Assembly (NCBI RefSeq): GCF_902150045.1
Contig: NZ_CABFVU010000001.1
Coordinates: 3,038,001 to 3,102,000 of the forward strand
DNA length: 64,000 nucleotides
From: Chitinophaga polysaccharea
GTDB lineage: Bacteria; Bacteroidota; Bacteroidia; Chitinophagales; Chitinophagaceae
Direction of reading: 5' to 3'
Part shown: one piece after another, positions 38,625 to 46,597 of the stretch
Layout of the letters: each line of letters starts with the position of its first letter
Numbering within the stretch: position 1 is the first letter of the stretch
Program-made: the position numbers and the translations under genes
Notes under the pieces: model-generated
Told to the model about the DNA's origin: nothing
Seen by the model: only the letters and a program-made list of their open reading frames with translations
The model's database searches: none

Positions 38625-39920
38625 TTATTGCATTAACCAGTTTTTGAAAGCGGGGTAGTCTGCCGCCAGCAGGGTGGCTTGTTTTTCTTTACCGTATAAA
38701 GACATCACTTTTGCGGGTGTATATATTTCTTCCCGTATAGACTTAGGAGCGGTATCTTCAAATTTTACCGGGTGGGCGGTTTCCAGGAAAACGCCTGTCA
38801 GTTCCGGTGAGCGTTCCAGGTAGCGTTGCAGTCCCATGAAGCCCACGGCGCCGTGTGGATCCAGCATATAATGGTTTTCTTTCCATACCTGTTCCATGGT
38901 TTGCGCGGTTTGTTTATCGTTAAAGCTGTAGGCGGTCAGCTTTTCCGAGAGAGAGGGAAGGTTGTTACCGAACAGTTCCAGGATCCGTACAAAGTTGCTG
39001 GGATCTGCCACATCCATGGCATTTGAAAGCGTAGGAAATGCTTTACCCGGTTCATATTTACCGCTTTCCATAAAGCGGGGCACGGTATCGTTGATATTGG
39101 TGGCTGCTACAAAATGCGCCACCGGCAATCCCATGGCAGCAGCCATCATACCTGCGCAGATGTTGCCGAAGTTGCCGCTGGGCACAGAGAACACCAGTTT
39201 CGGATGGGCTGCTTTCATTTGCTTATAGGCCAGGAAATAGTAGAACATCTGGGGCAGCCAGCGGGCCACGTTAATGGAGTTGGCGCTGGTAAGCGGGCGC
39301 CGGGCCTGGAGCTCGCTGTCAAGGAAGGCAGTTTTCACCAGTTGCTGACAGTCGTCGAAAGTACCTTGTATTTCCAGGGCATGGATATTATTGCCGAGCG
39401 TGGTAAGTTGTTTTTCCTGTAGCGTACTTACTTTATTGGAAGGGTAGAGGATCACGACTTCCACACCTGGTACGTTGTAAAATCCACTGGCCACTGCGCC
39501 GCCGGTATCGCCGGAAGTGGCTACCAGCACAGTTACCGGTGTGGTGCTGTTGCGCCGGAAATAACCGAGGCAGCCGGCCATAAAGCGTGCGCCTACATCT
39601 TTGAATGCAAGGGTAGGGCCATGGAATAATTCAAGTGCGTAGGTATGACCGGTTACTTTTTGTACCGGGAAGGGAAAGTGTAAAGTGTCTGTTACTATCT
39701 TCTTTAATGCTTCTTCGGGTATTTCGTCGCCTATGAACGGGCGGATTACTTTTAGTCCGATCTCGTGGTCCGTATATTGGTGCAGGTTAGTGATGAATTC
39801 TTTTTCCAGTACCGGTATCTGTTCCGGGAAGTACAATCCTTTGTCCGGTGCCAATCCCTGTACTACTGCTGTTTCGAAATTTACCTGGTGCTGCTTGTTC
39901 TGTAAGCTGAAATACTGCAT
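38625..39920 (-). CDS. thrC: Threonine synthase
   Basis: The 431-residue PLP enzyme converts O-phosphohomoserine to threonine. The lysine that binds PLP is K107 in PTLAFKDVGARF, and the phosphate-binding SGDTGGAVASGF loop follows. The N-terminal threonine-synthase domain is complete. It lies 21 nt below thrB in the order thrA-thrB-thrC. Confidence 0.96.
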   Translation of the reverse strand: MQYFSLQNKQHQVNFETAVVQGLAPDKGLYFPEQIPVLEKEFITNLHQYTDHEIGLKVIRPFIGDEIPEEALKKIVTDTLHFPFPVQKVTGHTYALELFHGPTLAFKDVGARFMAGCLGYFRRNSTTPVTVLVATSGDTGGAVASGFYNVPGVEVVILYPSNKVSTLQEKQLTTLGNNIHALEIQGTFDDCQQLVKTAFLDSELQARRPLTSANSINVARWLPQMFYYFLAYKQMKAAHPKLVFSVPSGNFGNICAGMMAAAMGLPVAHFVAATNINDTVPRFMESGKYEPGKAFPTLSNAMDVADPSNFVRILELFGNNLPSLSEKLTAYSFNDKQTAQTMEQVWKENHYMLDPHGAVGFMGLQRYLERSPELTGVFLETAHPVKFEDTAPKSIREEIYTPAKVMSLYGKEKQATLLAADYPAFKNWLMQ

Positions 39921-39941: not shown

Positions 39942-40868
39942 TTAGTCAATCACTTTTACACCGGCGGTGTTAATCTGGGAAACGTAGATCTTATAATCCA
40001 CGCCAAGCGGTGCGTAAACGCTATCCATTGTAGCCGCTACTTTGCGGGCATTTTCTTCTCCTTTGCTGAGCATAAAAACAGAGGGACCGGATCCGGATAT
40101 ACCGCCGCCGAGGGCGCCGGCTTCTTTGCATTTCAGTTTCAATTCGTGAAACGCCGGGATGAGGATGGAACGGATAGGTTCCACGATCACATCTTCGAGC
40201 GAGCGGCTGATCAGGTCATAATCATCCTGGTAAAGTGCCGCTACGAGCGCGCCTACGTTGCCCCACTGACGGATGGCATCTGTCATCAGCACCTTTTGTT
40301 TCAGTATTTCGCGCGCGTCGGAGGTTTTTACTTCTATCTGCGGATGTATAACGGTTACCCATAAATGCTCCGGCGTATGCAGGGTGGTGATGTCCAGCGG
40401 GCGATAGCTTCTTACCAGTGTAAAACCGCCGAGGATGGCGGGCGCCACGTTGTCGGCATGAGCGGAACCGCAGGCCAGTCTTTCTCCTTCCATGGCGAAC
40501 CTCACCAGTTGTTTTTTGGTAAACGGCTCTCCCAGCAGGTGGTTTACGCCCACCACTGCGCCGGCGCTGCTGGCGGCACTGGAGCCGATACCGCTGCCGG
40601 GGTGAATATTTTTGAAGATCTCTATTTCTATGCCGGTATCCGGATGATCGTATTTTTGGAGGAGGGCCTGAACGGCAACTCCGGCAACGTTACGGGATGT
40701 TTCCAGCGGGAGGTCTGCACCGTGGATGGCGGTGATGCGAACGCCTGGCTGGCTGCTTTTCCGGAGGATCATTTCATCTCCGGGCGCATTCAGCGCCAAT
40801 CCTATCACATCAAAGCCACAGGCTACATTGGCCACTGTTCCCGGCGCAAATACTTTTATACTGTCCAT
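39942..40868 (-). CDS. thrB: Homoserine kinase
   Basis: The 308-residue GHMP-family kinase phosphorylates homoserine. The ATP-binding motif is seen as HPGSGIGSSAASSAGAVV, with the N-terminal VFAPGTVANVACGFDVIG and the C-terminal GALGGGISGSGPSVF motifs typical of the family. It sits between thrA and thrC in the threonine operon, 65 nt after thrA. Confidence 0.96.
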   Translation of the reverse strand: MDSIKVFAPGTVANVACGFDVIGLALNAPGDEMILRKSSQPGVRITAIHGADLPLETSRNVAGVAVQALLQKYDHPDTGIEIEIFKNIHPGSGIGSSAASSAGAVVGVNHLLGEPFTKKQLVRFAMEGERLACGSAHADNVAPAILGGFTLVRSYRPLDITTLHTPEHLWVTVIHPQIEVKTSDAREILKQKVLMTDAIRQWGNVGALVAALYQDDYDLISRSLEDVIVEPIRSILIPAFHELKLKCKEAGALGGGISGSGPSVFMLSKGEENARKVAATMDSVYAPLGVDYKIYVSQINTAGVKVID

Positions 40869-40933: not shown

Positions 40934-43378
40934 TTACAGCCTTGCGCTCCGGATGATGTCTGCAAATATGCCGGAAGCGGTAACGTCTGCACCGGCGCCG
41001 GCGCCTTTTACGATCAGTGGCTGATCTTTATACCGGCTGGTGGTATACAGCACGATATTATCCTTGCCTTCCAGTTTAAAGAACGGATGATCGGGAGCTA
41101 CGCTTTGCAGGCCTACAGAAGCTTTACCATCTACATAGCGGGCTACGAACTTCAGGCGTTTTCCTTCTGCATCTGCCGCTTTGCGTAATCCCTGGAAATG
41201 GCTGGCATGCACGTCCAGTTGCTCGTAGAAAGCAGGCACGGATGGTGCATTGAGGCATTCATCGGGGAGGAACGAGTAATTGGTGATTTCGTCCATTTCA
41301 ATGGCAGCGCCGCTTTCACGGGCAAGTATGAGGATCTTTCTCATTACATCTTTGCCACTGAGGTCGATACGCGGATCCGGTTCAGTGTAGCCTTCATCCT
41401 GCGCTGCTTTCACCACTTCGCGGAAACTGGTGCCATTCAGGAAATGGTTGAACACGAAGTTGAGGCTGCCGGATAATACGGCTTCTATGCTGTGTACTTT
41501 GTCGCCGCTGCGGATCAGGTCATTCAGTGTATTGATGACCGGTAGTCCTGCTCCAACATTGGTTTCAAACAGGAAGGAAGCATTGTATTTGCGGGCCAGG
41601 TCTTTCAGTTGTTTATAATAGGCGTAATCCGATGAGCAGGCAATTTTATTGCAGGTCACTACGGAGATGCCATGCTGGAGGAACTCGTGGTAAACCGCTG
41701 CAATGTCGCTGCTGGCGGTATTATCCACGAATACGCTGTTGCGGAGGTTCATGGCTTTGATCTGCTGTACAAAATCAGCGGTGCTGATATGTTTGGCCTG
41801 TTCCAGTTGTTCGCGCCAGGTACGCAGGTTGATACCGGTGTCGCTGATGAGGGTATGGCGGCTGTTGGCCAGCCCGGTTACCCTGATCTGAAGGCCCAGT
41901 TCGTGCTGAAGGTAGTGTTGCTGTTGTTCCAGTTGTTCCAGCAGTTTACTGCCCACGTTGCCGGCGCCGGCGATAAAGAGGTTCACCTGTTTGAGCGGTG
42001 TTTCAAAAAAGGTTTCGTGCATTACATTCAGCGCTTTTTTGATATCGGCTTTGTTGATCACAGCGGAGATATTTTTTTCGGTAGATCCCTGTGCGATAGC
42101 TCTTACGTTAACACCGTTCCTGCCCAGGGTGCCAAAGAGCTTACCGCTGGTGCCGTGATGGTTTTTCATTTTATCACCTACTACGGCCACTATGCAGAGG
42201 TCTTTTTCCACCAGGAGGGGCTCTATGCTTTTTTCACTTATTTCCTGCGAGAACTCACTGTCGACCGCTGTTTTGGCTTTCAGCATATCTGCTTCATGAA
42301 TGCCTACGGTGATAGAGTGCTCAGAAGAACTTTGAGTGATGAGAATAACGTTGATCCGTTCCCGTAGGAGGGATTCGAACAGGCGTTTAGAGAACCCGGG
42401 GATGCCCACCATGCCGCTTCCTTCGAGGGTAAGCAGTGCAATGTTTGGGATACCGGAGATGCCTGTTACCGGGAAGTTGCGGTCGGCACTATCCTGTATA
42501 AGGGTACCATGATCTTCCGGGGCAAAGGTATTTTTGATCCAGATGGGAATGCGTTTGCTCATTACCGGCTGGATGGTGGGGGGATAAATGACTTTAGCGC
42601 CGAAGTGCGATAGCTCCATTGCTTCCACATAGGAGATATGTGAGATGGGAATGGCCTGTGATACGATGCGCGGGTCGGCGGTCATCATGCCGCTTACGTC
42701 TGTCCATATATCGAGTACGGATGCGTTTACCGCAGCGGCAATAATGGCGGCGGTATAGTCGGAACCGCCGCGTCCGAGGGTAGTGGTTTCGCCATCGGGA
42801 GTAGCCGCTACGAAGCCGGGAAATACTACATAGTCGGCGGGCGACTGTGCAAAGAACTGTGTAATATGGTGATTGGTGGCAACAAAGTTAACGGCGGCGT
42901 GGCCGAAGTTGTTATCGGTAACGATCAGTTCGCGACTGTCTTTACAGGAAGCGGAGAACCCCTGCTGTTTTAATTTTTCGGCTACTATCACGCATGACAT
43001 GAGCTCGCCGTAGCTCATTATTTTATCGAGGGTACGGGGGCTCAGTTCCGCCACCTGGAAGATGCCATCGCACAGGTTTTCGAGTGCGTTGAGTTTTTTC
43101 TTCAGCTGGCTTATTTGCCCGCTTTGCGCGGTAATGGGGAATAGCTCGCGGATAGTATCCAGGTGCCGTGCTTCAATTTCCTGGATAACATTTTTATAGT
43201 CTTCGTTGCCTTGTTCTGCCAGTTGTCCGCAGCGTATAAGCTTATCCGTTATTCCGCCGAGTGCAGATACCACGATAGCATATTTACCGGCAGGTTTATA
43301 TTGCTGAAGGATTTTGCAAACCTGTTCTATTGCTTTGGCGCTTCCTACTGAAGTGCCGCCAAATTTTAATACTTGCAT
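40934..43378 (-). CDS. thrA: Bifunctional aspartokinase / homoserine dehydrogenase I
   Basis: The 814-residue enzyme catalyses the first and third steps of threonine synthesis. The N-terminal aspartokinase starts with LKFGGTSVGS (4-13); two ACT-like regulatory domains lie at about 310-460 (ITQSSSEHSITVG, VNVRAIAQGSTEKNISAV). The homoserine dehydrogenase begins near residue 465 with the nucleotide-binding GAGNVGS and ends with a full substrate domain. ACT domains suggest feedback inhibition by threonine, in addition to the attenuator upstream. Confidence 0.96.
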   Translation of the reverse strand: MQVLKFGGTSVGSAKAIEQVCKILQQYKPAGKYAIVVSALGGITDKLIRCGQLAEQGNEDYKNVIQEIEARHLDTIRELFPITAQSGQISQLKKKLNALENLCDGIFQVAELSPRTLDKIMSYGELMSCVIVAEKLKQQGFSASCKDSRELIVTDNNFGHAAVNFVATNHHITQFFAQSPADYVVFPGFVAATPDGETTTLGRGGSDYTAAIIAAAVNASVLDIWTDVSGMMTADPRIVSQAIPISHISYVEAMELSHFGAKVIYPPTIQPVMSKRIPIWIKNTFAPEDHGTLIQDSADRNFPVTGISGIPNIALLTLEGSGMVGIPGFSKRLFESLLRERINVILITQSSSEHSITVGIHEADMLKAKTAVDSEFSQEISEKSIEPLLVEKDLCIVAVVGDKMKNHHGTSGKLFGTLGRNGVNVRAIAQGSTEKNISAVINKADIKKALNVMHETFFETPLKQVNLFIAGAGNVGSKLLEQLEQQQHYLQHELGLQIRVTGLANSRHTLISDTGINLRTWREQLEQAKHISTADFVQQIKAMNLRNSVFVDNTASSDIAAVYHEFLQHGISVVTCNKIACSSDYAYYKQLKDLARKYNASFLFETNVGAGLPVINTLNDLIRSGDKVHSIEAVLSGSLNFVFNHFLNGTSFREVVKAAQDEGYTEPDPRIDLSGKDVMRKILILARESGAAIEMDEITNYSFLPDECLNAPSVPAFYEQLDVHASHFQGLRKAADAEGKRLKFVARYVDGKASVGLQSVAPDHPFFKLEGKDNIVLYTTSRYKDQPLIVKGAGAGADVTASGIFADIIRSARL

Positions 43379-43529
43379 ATGGAGAATTTATACGTAGATA
43401 AGTCCGGGTCCTCCCGGTTATGTACCACCCTTGTGGTCGTTGGATCATATGTGAAAACTAACCCCGCAGTGGGGTTGTAATAGTGGTGGTCGTGGTCGCC
43501 ATAGTGCCCGCTATCTGCCTGGAGGCAGA
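43379..43529 (-). promoter_or_regulatory. thr operon leader with putative attenuator
   Basis: Reading toward thrA (minus strand): a 6-bp hairpin TCTGCC/GGCAGA (43514-43529), then the Thr-rich leader frame (43458-43502), whose end forms AACCCC/GGGGTT followed by AGTTTTC, then ACCAC/GTGGT and CCGGG/CCCGG hairpins before the thrA ATG. ACCACC in the leader codons can also pair with GGTGGT downstream, giving rival structures as in amino-acid attenuators. Which hairpin terminates is not settled from inspection. Confidence 0.65.
43458..43502 (-). CDS. thrL: Threonine operon leader peptide, 14 residues
   Basis: ATG at 43502 and TAG at 43458-43460 encode MATTTTTITTPLRG: seven threonines and one isoleucine in 14 residues. 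It lies 79 nt upstream of thrA on the same strand. The composition parallels the enterobacterial thrL peptide, where ribosome stalling at scarce Thr/Ile codons relieves termination. The last codons form one side of a GC hairpin. The gene name is given by analogy; no homology is implied. Confidence 0.75.
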   Translation of the reverse strand: MATTTTTITTPLRG

Positions 43530-44183
43530 AACAGAAGAGAACTGGTATGTATAAAACGGTATCACTATTGAAATATGACGATTATGTAACAAAAGTCTAT
43601 AATTACGCTGGTAAATAAAAGTGCAGTGGCTATTTTTAGAAATGTTTTAAAATTATGCTTTTTTGTTGATTTTTCTTTGTAATTATAAAGATAATTTAAA
43701 AATATATTCAAAATTGCATGCCTGTATTTGCGATTTTGTGATTAGCTTTATTTTAAATAATAATGATTGAATGACAATATTTTGACTTATTAACTCCGTG
43801 AGCATGTAAAAAAGAGTGAGATTAAAAGGAGGCTTTCCGGTTATTTATCTCCGGAAAAAAGATGCTTTATTATTCCCGCTGATCATCACCCGGTATAAAA
43901 ATGTTTTGGAATCGCAGTTTTTCCTTACCTTAGTCACCTAAACAATTGCCACTTGTCCATTTCACTGAAATATACAAGCAATAGTCAGCTTAACTACTAC
44001 TTCCTCATGGCCACGCTTGCCATGGATTCGACTCTGGCATAACCTTTCCCAACGGCCGCTGCCGGCCATTCTTCATGTGTTATATACCGTAACTTTGTAA
44101 TAGTATTCAGTTGCTATTCCTGCGCATGTGTATTCAAGTTTTCAGCTGCCATCTGCAGGTTGCACTGTATGTAAAAATATAGA
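43503..44183. other. AT-rich intergenic region between thr leader and hmgA
   Basis: About 680 bases without a credible gene on either strand. GACTTTTG on the minus strand near 43590 is a one-mismatch -7 box that could serve the thr operon. A TTTCCGG/CCGGAAA hairpin lies near 43834-43858. The hmgA promoter candidate is at 44090. Confidence 0.45.
44090..44097 (+). promoter_or_regulatory. Candidate -7 box for hmgA-hppD
   Basis: TAACTTTG matches TAnnTTTG. The start would be near 44104, giving a leader of about 155 nt that contains the phased repeats. Confidence 0.45.
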
Positions 44184-44233
44184 TCATACACCGGTACAAG
44201 GAATCATACACCATTCAATTTTAATCATACACC
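44184..44233 (+). repeat. Three 20-bp-phased direct repeats before hmgA
   Basis: ATCATACACC occurs at 44184, 44204 and 44224, exactly 20 bp apart. The first and third are followed by GG. The last copy ends 26 nt before the hmgA ATG. Spacing of about two helical turns suggests cooperative protein binding on one face, or an RNA-level signal if the upstream promoter is correct. Confidence 0.8.
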
Positions 44234-44259
44234 GGAACAATTTTTTCAAACCACCCGTC

Positions 44260-45417
44260 ATGCCACATTATTATAAACTCGGACAGATACCGCATAAGCG
44301 CCATACCCAGTTCCGTAAACCGGACGGCCAGCTGTATTCGGAACAGTTGTTTTCAACGGAAGGCTTTTCTTCCCACTCCAGCCTGTTGTATCACTGTCAC
44401 CCGCCTACGGAGATCGTGAAAGTAGATGAACCTTATTCCGTTGCACCAAAAGTGGCGGAAGAGAAGATGCTGAAGCACCGTAGTTTCCTGGGCTTCAATA
44501 TTAAGCCGGAAGATGATTTTTTGGAAAGCCGCAAAGCCGTGCTGGTAAACAGTGATCTCCATATAGTACTGGCATCTCCCCGTAAAAGTATGGAAGGATA
44601 CTTTTACAAAAATGCCGATGCCGATGAAATGATCTTTGTACATGAAGGCAGCGGCGTGCTGAAAACGCAGTACGGGCAACTGGAGTTCGGCTATGGCGAT
44701 TACCTGGTGATTCCCCGCGGGACTATTTACCAGATCACTTTCAACAGCGATGGCAACCGCCTGTTTATCGTGGAATCGTTTAGCCCTATCCGTTATCCGA
44801 AAAGATACCTGAGCAAATATGGCCAGCTACTGGAAAATTCTCCTTACTGCGAACGGGATATCCGGCAGCCGCAGCAGCTGGAAACCATTGACGAGGAAGG
44901 CGATTTCCTGATCCGCATTAAAAAGAAAGGGGTAATTTATCCGATACATTATAAACACCATCCGTTTGATGTGATAGGATGGGATGGATGCGAATACCCG
45001 TTTGCCTTTTCCATCCACGATTTTGAACCGATCACCGGGCGGGTACATCAGCCGCCACCGGTACACCAGACCTTTGAAGGCAACAACTTTGTGGTATGCT
45101 CTTTTTGCCCCCGCTTGTTTGATTACCACCCCCTGTCTATACCAGCGCCTTATAACCATAGCAACATCGACAGCGATGAGGTGTTATATTATGTAGACGG
45201 CGATTTTATGAGCCGTAAACATGTGGAACGGGGAATGATCACCCTGCATCCCGCGGGTATTCCGCACGGGCCACACCCGGGTGCAGTGGAAAAAAGCATC
45301 GGTGCTAAGGAAACAAAAGAACTGGCTGTGATGGTAGATACTTTTCACCCGCTGCAGATCACGGAAGCTGCACTGGGCATTGAAGACGGCAGCTATGTAA
45401 TGAGCTGGGCAGAATAA
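44260..45417 (+). CDS. hmgA: Homogentisate 1,2-dioxygenase
   Basis: The product is 385 residues from the ATG at 44260 (MPHYYKLGQIPHKRHTQFR). An earlier in-frame ATG would add 44 residues that run through the repeat array and is rejected. This iron enzyme opens the ring of homogentisate in tyrosine breakdown. The cupin metal motifs PPPVHQTFEGNNF (His, Glu) and PAGIPHGPHPG (His) are intact. It is followed after 49 nt by hppD, which makes its substrate. Confidence 0.94.
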   Translation: MPHYYKLGQIPHKRHTQFRKPDGQLYSEQLFSTEGFSSHSSLLYHCHPPTEIVKVDEPYSVAPKVAEEKMLKHRSFLGFNIKPEDDFLESRKAVLVNSDLHIVLASPRKSMEGYFYKNADADEMIFVHEGSGVLKTQYGQLEFGYGDYLVIPRGTIYQITFNSDGNRLFIVESFSPIRYPKRYLSKYGQLLENSPYCERDIRQPQQLETIDEEGDFLIRIKKKGVIYPIHYKHHPFDVIGWDGCEYPFAFSIHDFEPITGRVHQPPPVHQTFEGNNFVVCSFCPRLFDYHPLSIPAPYNHSNIDSDEVLYYVDGDFMSRKHVERGMITLHPAGIPHGPHPGAVEKSIGAKETKELAVMVDTFHPLQITEAALGIEDGSYVMSWAE

Positions 45418-45466
45418 CGATTAAACAAAAACCAACCAACTTATAAAACCAAAACAATTGAATGTT

Positions 45467-46597
45467 ATGGAAACAGCATTAGTGAATGCAGACAACTTAA
45501 CCGGTCAGCAGGATTTCTTACCTCTCAATGGTACCGACTATGTAGAGTTTTACGTAGGCAATGCCAAACAGGCGGCACATTATTACAAAACTGCTTTTGG
45601 CTTTCAGCCGGTGGCTTATGCCGGTCCTGAAACCGGGGTGAAAGACAGGGTATCTTATGTACTGGTGCAGAATAAGCTGCGCTTTGTGCTTACCACTTCC
45701 CTGTTCCCTGATACGGAAATAGCCCGTCACGTAGCCAAACACGGAGATGGCGTGAAAGTGCTGGCACTATGGGTAGACGATGCCCGCTCCGCTTACGAAG
45801 AAACTGTAAAGCGCGGCGCTACGCCTTACCTGGAGCCTGTGGCGGAAAAAGATGAATCCGGTGAGGTAGTACGCAGTGGTATTCACACCTATGGCGATAC
45901 AGTGCACCTGTTTATAGAGCGAAAGAACTACAAAGGATTATTCATGCCAGGCTATAAGGAATGGAAAACAAATTACCGGCCAACTGAAACCGGCCTGTTA
46001 TATGTAGACCATTGTGTGGGCAACGTGGGCTGGAACGAGATGAATACCTGGGTAGAATTTTACGAACGGGTAATGGGTTTCAGAAACCTGATCTCTTTCG
46101 ACGACAGTGATATTTCCACGGAGTATTCTGCCCTGATGAGTAAAGTGATGAGTAACGGTAACGGCCGTGTGAAATTCCCGATCAATGAGCCGGCAGAAGG
46201 TAAGAAAAAGTCGCAGATCGAAGAATACCTCGACTTCTACGGCGGACCGGGCGTACAACATGTGGCCATTGCCACCAATGATATTGTGCACACGGTGACA
46301 GAGCTGCAGAACAGGGGCGTAGAGTTCCTTACCGTACCGCCGGTATACTATGAAACGCTGCTGGACCGTGTAGGCAAGATCGATGAAGACATAGCGCCGT
46401 TGCAAAAGTTAGGCATACTGGTAGACCGGGATGATGAGGGATATTTGCTGCAGATCTTCACCAAGCCTATCCAGGACCGGCCTACTGTCTTCTTTGAAAT
46501 TATTCAGCGTAAGGGCGCGCAGTCTTTTGGTAAGGGCAATTTCAAGGCGTTGTTTGAATCTATTGAAAGAGAACAGGCGCTGCGGGGGAATTTGTAA
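45467..46597 (+). CDS. hppD: 4-Hydroxyphenylpyruvate dioxygenase
   Basis: The product is 376 residues from the ATG at 45467 (METALVNADN); a TTG nine bases upstream is not needed. The enzyme converts 4-hydroxyphenylpyruvate to homogentisate. The three iron ligands are visible in their usual contexts: His in YVDHCVGNV, His in GVQHVAIAT and Glu in VFFEIIQRKG. The C-terminal FGKGNFKALFESIEREQ helix is complete. Co-transcribed with hmgA; downstream is the perfect inverted-repeat element. Confidence 0.96.
   Translation: METALVNADNLTGQQDFLPLNGTDYVEFYVGNAKQAAHYYKTAFGFQPVAYAGPETGVKDRVSYVLVQNKLRFVLTTSLFPDTEIARHVAKHGDGVKVLALWVDDARSAYEETVKRGATPYLEPVAEKDESGEVVRSGIHTYGDTVHLFIERKNYKGLFMPGYKEWKTNYRPTETGLLYVDHCVGNVGWNEMNTWVEFYERVMGFRNLISFDDSDISTEYSALMSKVMSNGNGRVKFPINEPAEGKKKSQIEEYLDFYGGPGVQHVAIATNDIVHTVTELQNRGVEFLTVPPVYYETLLDRVGKIDEDIAPLQKLGILVDRDDEGYLLQIFTKPIQDRPTVFFEIIQRKGAQSFGKGNFKALFESIEREQALRGNL

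Follow-up and report, generated by a model that had tools for sequence, protein, structure and literature searches.

The window analysed here is a stretch of 64,000 nt from the 7.6-Mb genome of the soil bacterium Chitinophaga polysaccharea (RefSeq assembly GCF_902150045.1, contig NZ_CABFVU010000001.1, positions 3,038,001 to 3,102,000). Its minus strand carries thrA, followed by thrB and thrC, and a short leader region precedes the ATG of thrA at 43378 (Table 1). Among named relatives, Chitinophaga ginsengisegetis is the closest at thrA, with a protein 96% identical. Upstream of the thr operon and divergent from it, two genes on the plus strand (44128-46597) resemble a homogentisate 1,2-dioxygenase and a 4-hydroxyphenylpyruvate dioxygenase, as named by sequence reading.

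Table 1. Features of the thr locus in window coordinates, from upstream to downstream on the minus strand.
Feature	Position	Strand	Description	Basis
Promoter-like -7 octamer	43590..43597	minus	GACTTTTG; TTT another 20 nt upstream	position before leader GTG and Bacteroidetes consensus
Helix A, 5' arm	43563..43569	minus	AATAGTG, across leader start codon	helix statistics among Chitinophaga
Leader frame (probable extent)	43458..43565	minus	35 codons; GTG start 43565-43563; TAG stop 43460-43458; peptide MIPFYTYQFSSVSASRQIAGTMATTTTTITTPLRG	open frame and coding signature
Box copy 1	43545..43550	minus	ACATAC, early codons	ACATA conserved in 78/78
Helix A, 3' arm	43501..43506	minus	CACTAT, 6 bp, directly before Thr codons	helix statistics among Chitinophaga
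14-codon frame of the first-pass annotation	43502..43458	minus	MATTTTTITTPLRG*, Thr-rich 3' part of leader	translation of minus strand
Hairpin B	43460..43476	minus	AACCCC-ACTGC-GGGGTT, over last codons and stop	five of six pairs invariant in genus; both-side changes in other genera
Box copy 2	43442..43453	minus	CACATATGATCC (genus consensus CACATATCATCC), between hairpins B and C	conserved in genus
Hairpin C	43424..43437	minus	ACCAC-AAGG-GTGGT	covariation
Hairpin D	43404..43417	minus	CCGGG-AGGA-CCCGG; no U-tract; differs among clades	sequence comparison
thrA	40934..43378	minus	fused aspartokinase-homoserine dehydrogenase, 814 aa	named from sequence
thrB	39942..40868	minus	homoserine kinase	name from sequence and place
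thrC	38625..39920	minus	threonine synthase	name from sequence and place

The first-pass annotation had described a Thr-rich leader peptide of 14 codons ending 79 nt before thrA. Translation of the minus strand confirmed this peptide, which holds seven Thr and one Ile, while the plus strand over the same positions translates as LTPQWGC..., unlike MATTTTTITTPLRG*. The length assigned to it had to be revised. In all 78 Chitinophaga loci read, a Thr/Ile-rich frame terminates 79-90 nt before thrA and is open upstream to a GTG, which has the context AATAGTG in 69 of them, whereas only 21 offer an ATG at 10-16 codons upstream of the stop. None of the 78 frames contains an internal stop, whereas shuffling introduces one in frame into 56.4 of 78 leaders. 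Among 189 close pairs, 36, 15 and 49% of the leader mismatches fell on codon positions 1, 2 and 3, respectively, and the BLOSUM62 score per changed codon was +1.86 in the leader frame, compared with +0.08 and -0.65 in the two alternative frames. Since this coding signal runs past the annotated ATG towards the GTG, the leader most likely spans 35 codons and probably starts at the GTG at 43565. When the 300 nt upstream of thrA were shuffled, none of 2000 shuffles had at least seven Thr among the last 14 codons of a frame. Stronger evidence against chance comes from the conservation of the frame before thrA in relatives, and comparison across these relatives also supports its translation.

The promoter consensus in Bacteroidetes is TTG...TAnnTTTG. 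A TTTG lies 19-28 nt upstream of the leader GTG in all 78 Chitinophaga loci (exactly 24 nt in 40), with TTG or TTT a further 17-24 nt upstream in 66. Transcription is predicted to start about 15-20 nt before the GTG, a placement that depends on this consensus, and the leader frame would thus begin almost at the start of the transcript.

For the genus, 79 Chitinophaga genomes were searched. One of them (G050), in which the thrA match begins at residue 56, was left out, and the upstream regions of two others with broken thrA frames (G075 and G077) were still read. For the family, 60 new genomes were taken from 202 with a strong thrA match. Named loci (L148-L189, 42 of 80) were analysed as a further set, which contains a single Chitinophaga (L149) and overlaps with the family set in several genomes. 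A thrA match of some kind was present in all 148 genomes searched, our own included, many of those outside the family being matches to the aspartokinase half only. A Thr/Ile-rich frame precedes thrA in 62 of 66 loci from other Chitinophagaceae and in 33 of the 42 named loci (many Flavobacteriaceae), including Flavobacterium, Polaribacter, Hydrotalea and Flavihumibacter; these counts cover related genomes and hence are not independent. No Thr-rich frame was found at 22 thrA loci from other families of the order. The frame is therefore kept in Chitinophaga, in most of the other Chitinophagaceae loci read and in Flavobacterium and its relatives, the comparison that had been proposed as a check on the peptide, and this answers the objection that it might lack conservation.

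Three loci in these sets deserve a remark of their own. In G038, two thrA copies of equal score lie in opposite orientation on one contig (C7, 50376-52817 and 72000-74441), which is either a duplication or an assembly artefact. Locus L178, from a metagenome-assembled genome (MAG) titled 'Bifidobacterium breve', carries a thrA of the Bacteroidota type and a leader like those of Flavobacteriaceae, so that the title misfits the sequence. The same is true of L127, titled as a 'Flavihumibacter' MAG, the thrA of which is 79% identical to that of the window, as in Chitinophaga.

A covariance model of the leader region (R1) was built from 103 training sequences, of which 20 belong to the 78 genus loci and 83 to the 95 other loci, 12 loci being left out by hand as duplicates or for uncertain stop positions. 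With some training sequences coming from genomes later searched, R1 matched 38 of 296 genomes of the phylum, with a single match in each; ten of the 38 come from one family that lies outside the class of the window. Under strict filters there was no match in the remaining 258, many of which may lack a fused thrA. All 30 of the matching loci inspected lie 5' of thrA, and in 29 of them the distance from the start of the match to the start of thrA is 114-225 nt. At locus L301 (G670), a thr leader with box lies about 744 nt from thrA, with something in between. In 18 chosen genomes R1 gave one strong match each, plus five weak ones at E 0.19-0.96, and no second convincing match. At gathering score, Rfam matched nothing in the window. 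With the limit relaxed to E 10, the region 43330-43650 gave two weak matches only, one to a miRNA family and one to a snoRNA family.

Two hairpins are conserved at and after the end of the leader frame. Hairpin B contains the last Thr codon or codons and is directly followed by AGTTTTC. Five of its six pairs are invariant within Chitinophaga, and in other genera its stem takes forms such as AACCC/GGGTT, AATCCGC/GCGGATT and TACCC/GGGTA. In an alignment of 83 sequences, built without regard to pairing, 81.2% of the cells pair and 31 both-side changes were counted; for slid versions of the hairpin the figures were 26-50% and 3-18. A complementary stem at the position of hairpin C is present in all 78 Chitinophaga loci; in 76 distinct rows, 99.7% of its cells are paired and both-side changes occur at three of its five pairs. 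The covarying hairpins for which relatives were to be compared were thus seen, for C within the genus and for B in other genera. The segment after hairpin C is largely variable among clades.

In an all-pairs scan of leader segments, run with composition shuffles on every second genus member (39 of 78 species), helix A, hairpin C and hairpin B ranked first, with mean z of 3.65, 2.03 and 1.44. Helix A is formed by the start-codon segment AATAGTGC and by GCACTATT, which lies just 5' of the Thr codons. In Chitinophaga, 93.7% of its alignment cells are paired and it exceeds synonymous-codon shuffles in 68 of 78 species. Both arms are rewired in G076 (CAAAGTGC/GCACTTTG, p 0.000) and in G008 (CGCAGTG/CACTGTG, p 0.110 alone), and in both species the rewired 3' arm lies farther from the stop. 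The best helix A of the window species has 6-7 bp and a leader-shuffle p of 0.043, with an alternative 7-bp partner, CACTATT, inside the Thr codons at 43485-43479. Thirteen of the 78 Chitinophaga loci fall short of p 0.05 against leader shuffles, seven of them among the nearest relatives of the window species, most of which do not rise above shuffles. G001 is without the helix. Pairings of this kind are seen in the outgroups G080, G081 and G086 and were not found in G082 and G085. Helix A thus appears conserved in most Chitinophaga and weak in the clade of the window itself. In other genera only 13 of 87 loci reach z>1.64, with start codons that were set by rule and are possibly wrong, and a phylum-wide helix A was rejected. 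Being mostly absent from other genera, it cannot serve as the central part of a phylum-wide mechanism.

Both copies of the box are also conserved. For copy 1, ACATA occurs 14-17 nt after the G of the GTG in all 78 Chitinophaga loci, but the frame in which it would be read differs between 56 of them and the other 22, which indicates that it is kept as nucleotides. For copy 2, CATAT or CATAC lies within 40 nt past the leader stop in 77 of the 78 genus loci, as ACATATCRTCC in 55, and a CATATnRTCC-like box is also found in Flavobacterium, for instance TTTACATATAATCC in L173. Located with a permissive pattern, it lies 9 nt past the leader stop in 63 of the 78 genus loci and 17-18 nt past it in 50 of 93 others, a distance that varies by lineage. 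The distance from the end of hairpin B is steadier, 7-9 nt in 73 of 78 and 6-10 nt in 78 of 93. Scored with a matrix trained on Chitinophaga, the box reached p<0.01 in 25 of 62 Chitinophagaceae loci and 20 of 33 named loci with a leader above the Thr score, and also in six of nine named loci below it. Hairpin plus box was found in 93 of the 95 other loci by a short permissive pattern, the hairpins being picked by complementarity, a selection that the alignment of 83 sequences avoids. Hairpin-stabilised pausing of the polymerase is known from the his and trp leaders of E. coli, and the geometry of hairpin B plus box may, by analogy, be that of such a pause.

The box was also considered as a signal shared with other operons, and this was rejected. 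The pattern TTnnCACATATnRTCC has one further exact match in the same genome, apparently within or beside a coding frame, which was judged a chance occurrence. Upstream of ilvD, in 16 Chitinophaga loci (L279 at G000:C2:922653 and 15 others) delimited by a rough start-codon rule, neither an Ile/Leu/Val leader nor a CATAT box was found.

The comparisons support an element, made up of the leader frame, hairpins B and C and the box, with helix A in most Chitinophaga, that is conserved and found only before thrA. As in attenuators, a short frame rich in codons for the product of the operon lies 5' of it, with conserved RNA structure at and after these codons (B, C and A); mutually exclusive terminator and antiterminator hairpins were not found in the scan of 39 species. 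We consider attenuation the likely class of control and give a probability of about 0.7 to ribosome-mediated threonine attenuation of thrABC in a variant without a standard terminator. What survives of the attenuator described in the first-pass annotation is the conserved Thr-codon leader of thrABC. Its 14-codon extent is not supported, nor are a pairing between ACCACC in the Thr codons and GGTGGT downstream and a terminator.

The main rival explanation, which we regard as unlikely, is a control of translation or mRNA stability, in which leader ribosomes would open or protect the start of thrA and transcription would be full-length in every condition. It would account for the lack of a conserved standard terminator, and a ACGTATAAA-like stretch before thrA recurs in several clades. 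However, no leader segment pairs consistently with the 20 nt immediately upstream of thrA (the highest mean z being 0.47), and much of the sequence past hairpin C varies among clades. The 79-90 nt from the leader stop to thrA are also long for reinitiation, far above the peak distance of 11-14 bp given in a passage of PMC4833913 for reinitiation after leader genes in Bacteroidetes.

Attenuation of the classic E. coli type, with alternative hairpins, a helix between ACCACC and GGTGGT and an intrinsic terminator before thrA, is less probable still. The Thr-rich leader would suit it and both sequences are present, their pairing (Thr:C3) being fourth in the composition-shuffle scan with a mean z of 0.95. 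Under synonymous-codon shuffling, however, this pairing has a mean z of -0.55; a z above 1.64 is seen in only one of 78 species, the window species itself stands at 0.28, and the pairing was therefore rejected as a selected one. The scan of 39 of the 78 species showed no mutually exclusive pair of hairpins and no other prominent alternative helix: after Thr:C3, the best partner of B or C was B3:C5 (mean z 0.62), and none was consistent. A pairing of the 3' arm of hairpin B with AACC after hairpin C, which would be the classic 2:3 helix, can be seen by eye in some species and was discarded at a mean z of 0.48 in the scan (B3:postC).

The terminator of the classic scheme fares similarly. A strict rule (stem of at least 6, at least 4 GC, at least 6 T in 8) was satisfied by one of 78 Chitinophaga thr leaders and by three of the 95 others. 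The control was a set of Chitinophaga his leaders, 16 of 18 loci after L256 and L267, of other families, had been left out, and 15 of these 16 satisfied the rule. A lenient rule was passed by 54 of the 78 Chitinophaga leaders, against 0.8 in shuffles, and by 14 of the 95 other loci. The sequence that passes is mainly hairpin B, as only four of 78 remained when the sequence began after the stop codon. The hairpin with a short U-tract noted in the first-pass annotation is real, as are the AGTTTTC that follows it and its lenient score, but a standard terminator is not conserved. Weak termination at hairpin B could occur in Chitinophaga and is not common to most other loci (14/95). Because hairpin B overlaps the stop codon, a ribosome finishing the peptide would open this hairpin rather than form it, and a weak terminator at this place has the wrong polarity for induction by starvation.

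The his leaders used as control lie upstream of hisG in the same genome (L259, on C2) and at other loci of L250-L266. They encode a His-rich peptide such as MITNKHTHHHHHILPQG, which is followed by the terminator GGGGCTTACC-GGAAA-GGTAGGCCCC-TTTTTT. Judged by its sequence, the genome that carries the thr leader also has a classical his attenuator. At one locus upstream of hisG (L258, G002), an array of repeats of about 50 nt, GATGAGGCCGTAAGGCCCCAT...AATAAAAATG, follows an apparent his terminator.

It is improbable that the box and hairpins B and C bind a protein or a small molecule, the leader peptide being a mere part of the scaffold. The retention of the CATATnRTCC-like box as nucleotides across families, with copy 1 in two different reading frames, is what such a site would predict. 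Little elaborate structure is present, however, and the Thr run and the stop hairpin, which a plain aptamer would not need, are conserved alongside the box. As for a Thr-rich frame from chance or low-complexity sequence with no regulatory role, the isolated fold of the region is unremarkable (z -1.21; 22 of 200 shuffles fold equally well), but the shuffles of the upstream region and the conservation of frame, hairpins and box over many genera refute it and leave it practically no probability.

Threonine attenuation without a standard terminator could proceed as follows. A ribosome would translate the short frame, which ends in a run of Thr/Ile codons with hairpin B immediately after it, over the stop. 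When charged tRNA-Thr is scarce, this ribosome would stall on the Thr codons. In Chitinophaga, the stalled ribosome would cover the 3' arm of helix A and keep the leader start codon open, further ribosomes would queue on the C-rich, G-poor leader, and thrA would be transcribed. When threonine is plentiful, the ribosome would reach the stop and leave, helix A would close over the start codon and the leader would be bare. Hairpin B would perhaps hold the RNA polymerase at the CATAT box, and the polymerase would then be terminated before thrA.

As no standard intrinsic terminator is conserved, Rho would be the most likely terminating agent, and this is the least certain step of the scheme. Its support is the composition of the leader, in which the C minus G fraction is 0.207, against 0.030 in windows of thrA, 3.2% of which reach 0.207 (30 loci); the 24 nt after the leader stop are 32% C and 8% G. 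A bare RNA of this kind, rich in C and poor in G, would suit Rho, and the pause at hairpin B plus box would give it time. A pause plus Rho as the readout is perhaps what this composition and the geometry of the region point to. As a whole, we tentatively propose a widespread Bacteroidota threonine attenuator that has no intrinsic terminator: hairpin B and the CATATnRTCC box would make up a polymerase pause that the ribosome reads, Rho would decide, and Chitinophaga would add a one-ribosome gate whose start codon is closed again by the pre-Thr segment unless a starved ribosome holds it open.

In E. coli, a short leader peptide rich in Thr and Ile codons, thrL (Rfam Thr_leader, RF00506), stands immediately upstream of thrA in the thrABC operon. 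The Chitinophaga element is alike in its short Thr/Ile-rich peptide directly before thrA. It differs from thrL in the hairpin over the stop codon, the CATAT box, the start-codon helix A and the lack of a strict intrinsic terminator in 77 of 78 Chitinophaga loci. RF00506 was not matched in the window at gathering score, and relaxing the limit to E 10 within 43330-43650 gave no match to it either. The Chitinophaga his leader shares with the thr leader a short 5' region after a TAnnTTTG-like promoter and, by eye, a stop-codon hairpin after the run of amino-acid codons (His in that case), but it has a strong terminator and repeated complementary segments, and the thr leader has neither. tnaC and mgtL are Rho-dependent leader attenuators, in which the position of the ribosome on a short leader decides the access of Rho. 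The proposed likeness to them is this gating of Rho by ribosome position; the signal sensed here would be uncharged tRNA-Thr. A T-box riboswitch was also considered, as AGGGTGGTAC resembles the T-box sequence, and was rejected, since Rfam gave no T-box match and the leading G's of AGGGTGGTAC are not conserved in relatives.

Bacteroidetes/Chlorobi are reportedly among the groups with attenuators in the abstract of Vitreschak 2004, and the prediction of a Bacteroidetes thr attenuator may have been published already in older comparative work (Vitreschak 2004, Lopatovskaya 2010). In the open-licence literature, judged from titles, the starts of abstracts and some passages, no description of a Bacteroidota thrA leader was found. 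Passages of two reports propose attenuation in the phylum: by leader peptides for amino-acid biosynthesis operons of Flavobacterium psychrophilum (PMC9723704), and, in Bacteroides thetaiotaomicron, for some long 5' UTRs with leader-like sORFs (PMC7366714). The words 'threonine' and 'thrA' are absent from the main text of both. The Bacteroid-trp motif (RF01692), by its name a trp leader, is listed as cis-regulatory in Bacteroidetes in Table 1 of Weinberg 2010 (PMC2864571), and it has no match at the thr locus.

The class of control is a known one, and the element described here is a version without terminator and without Rfam match, found only before thrA. Leader-peptide attenuation is textbook knowledge in enterobacteria. 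For the Bacteroidota, a large phylum whose members live in soil, water and the gut, PMC9723704 and PMC7366714 do no more than suggest it. The present element spans two classes of this phylum without the standard terminator that defines the classical switch. The nucleotide box points to a partner, for which the polymerase, Rho or a protein are candidates. With their thr and his leaders, these bacteria would have two ways of building the same sensor in one organism, and hence offer a ready comparison.
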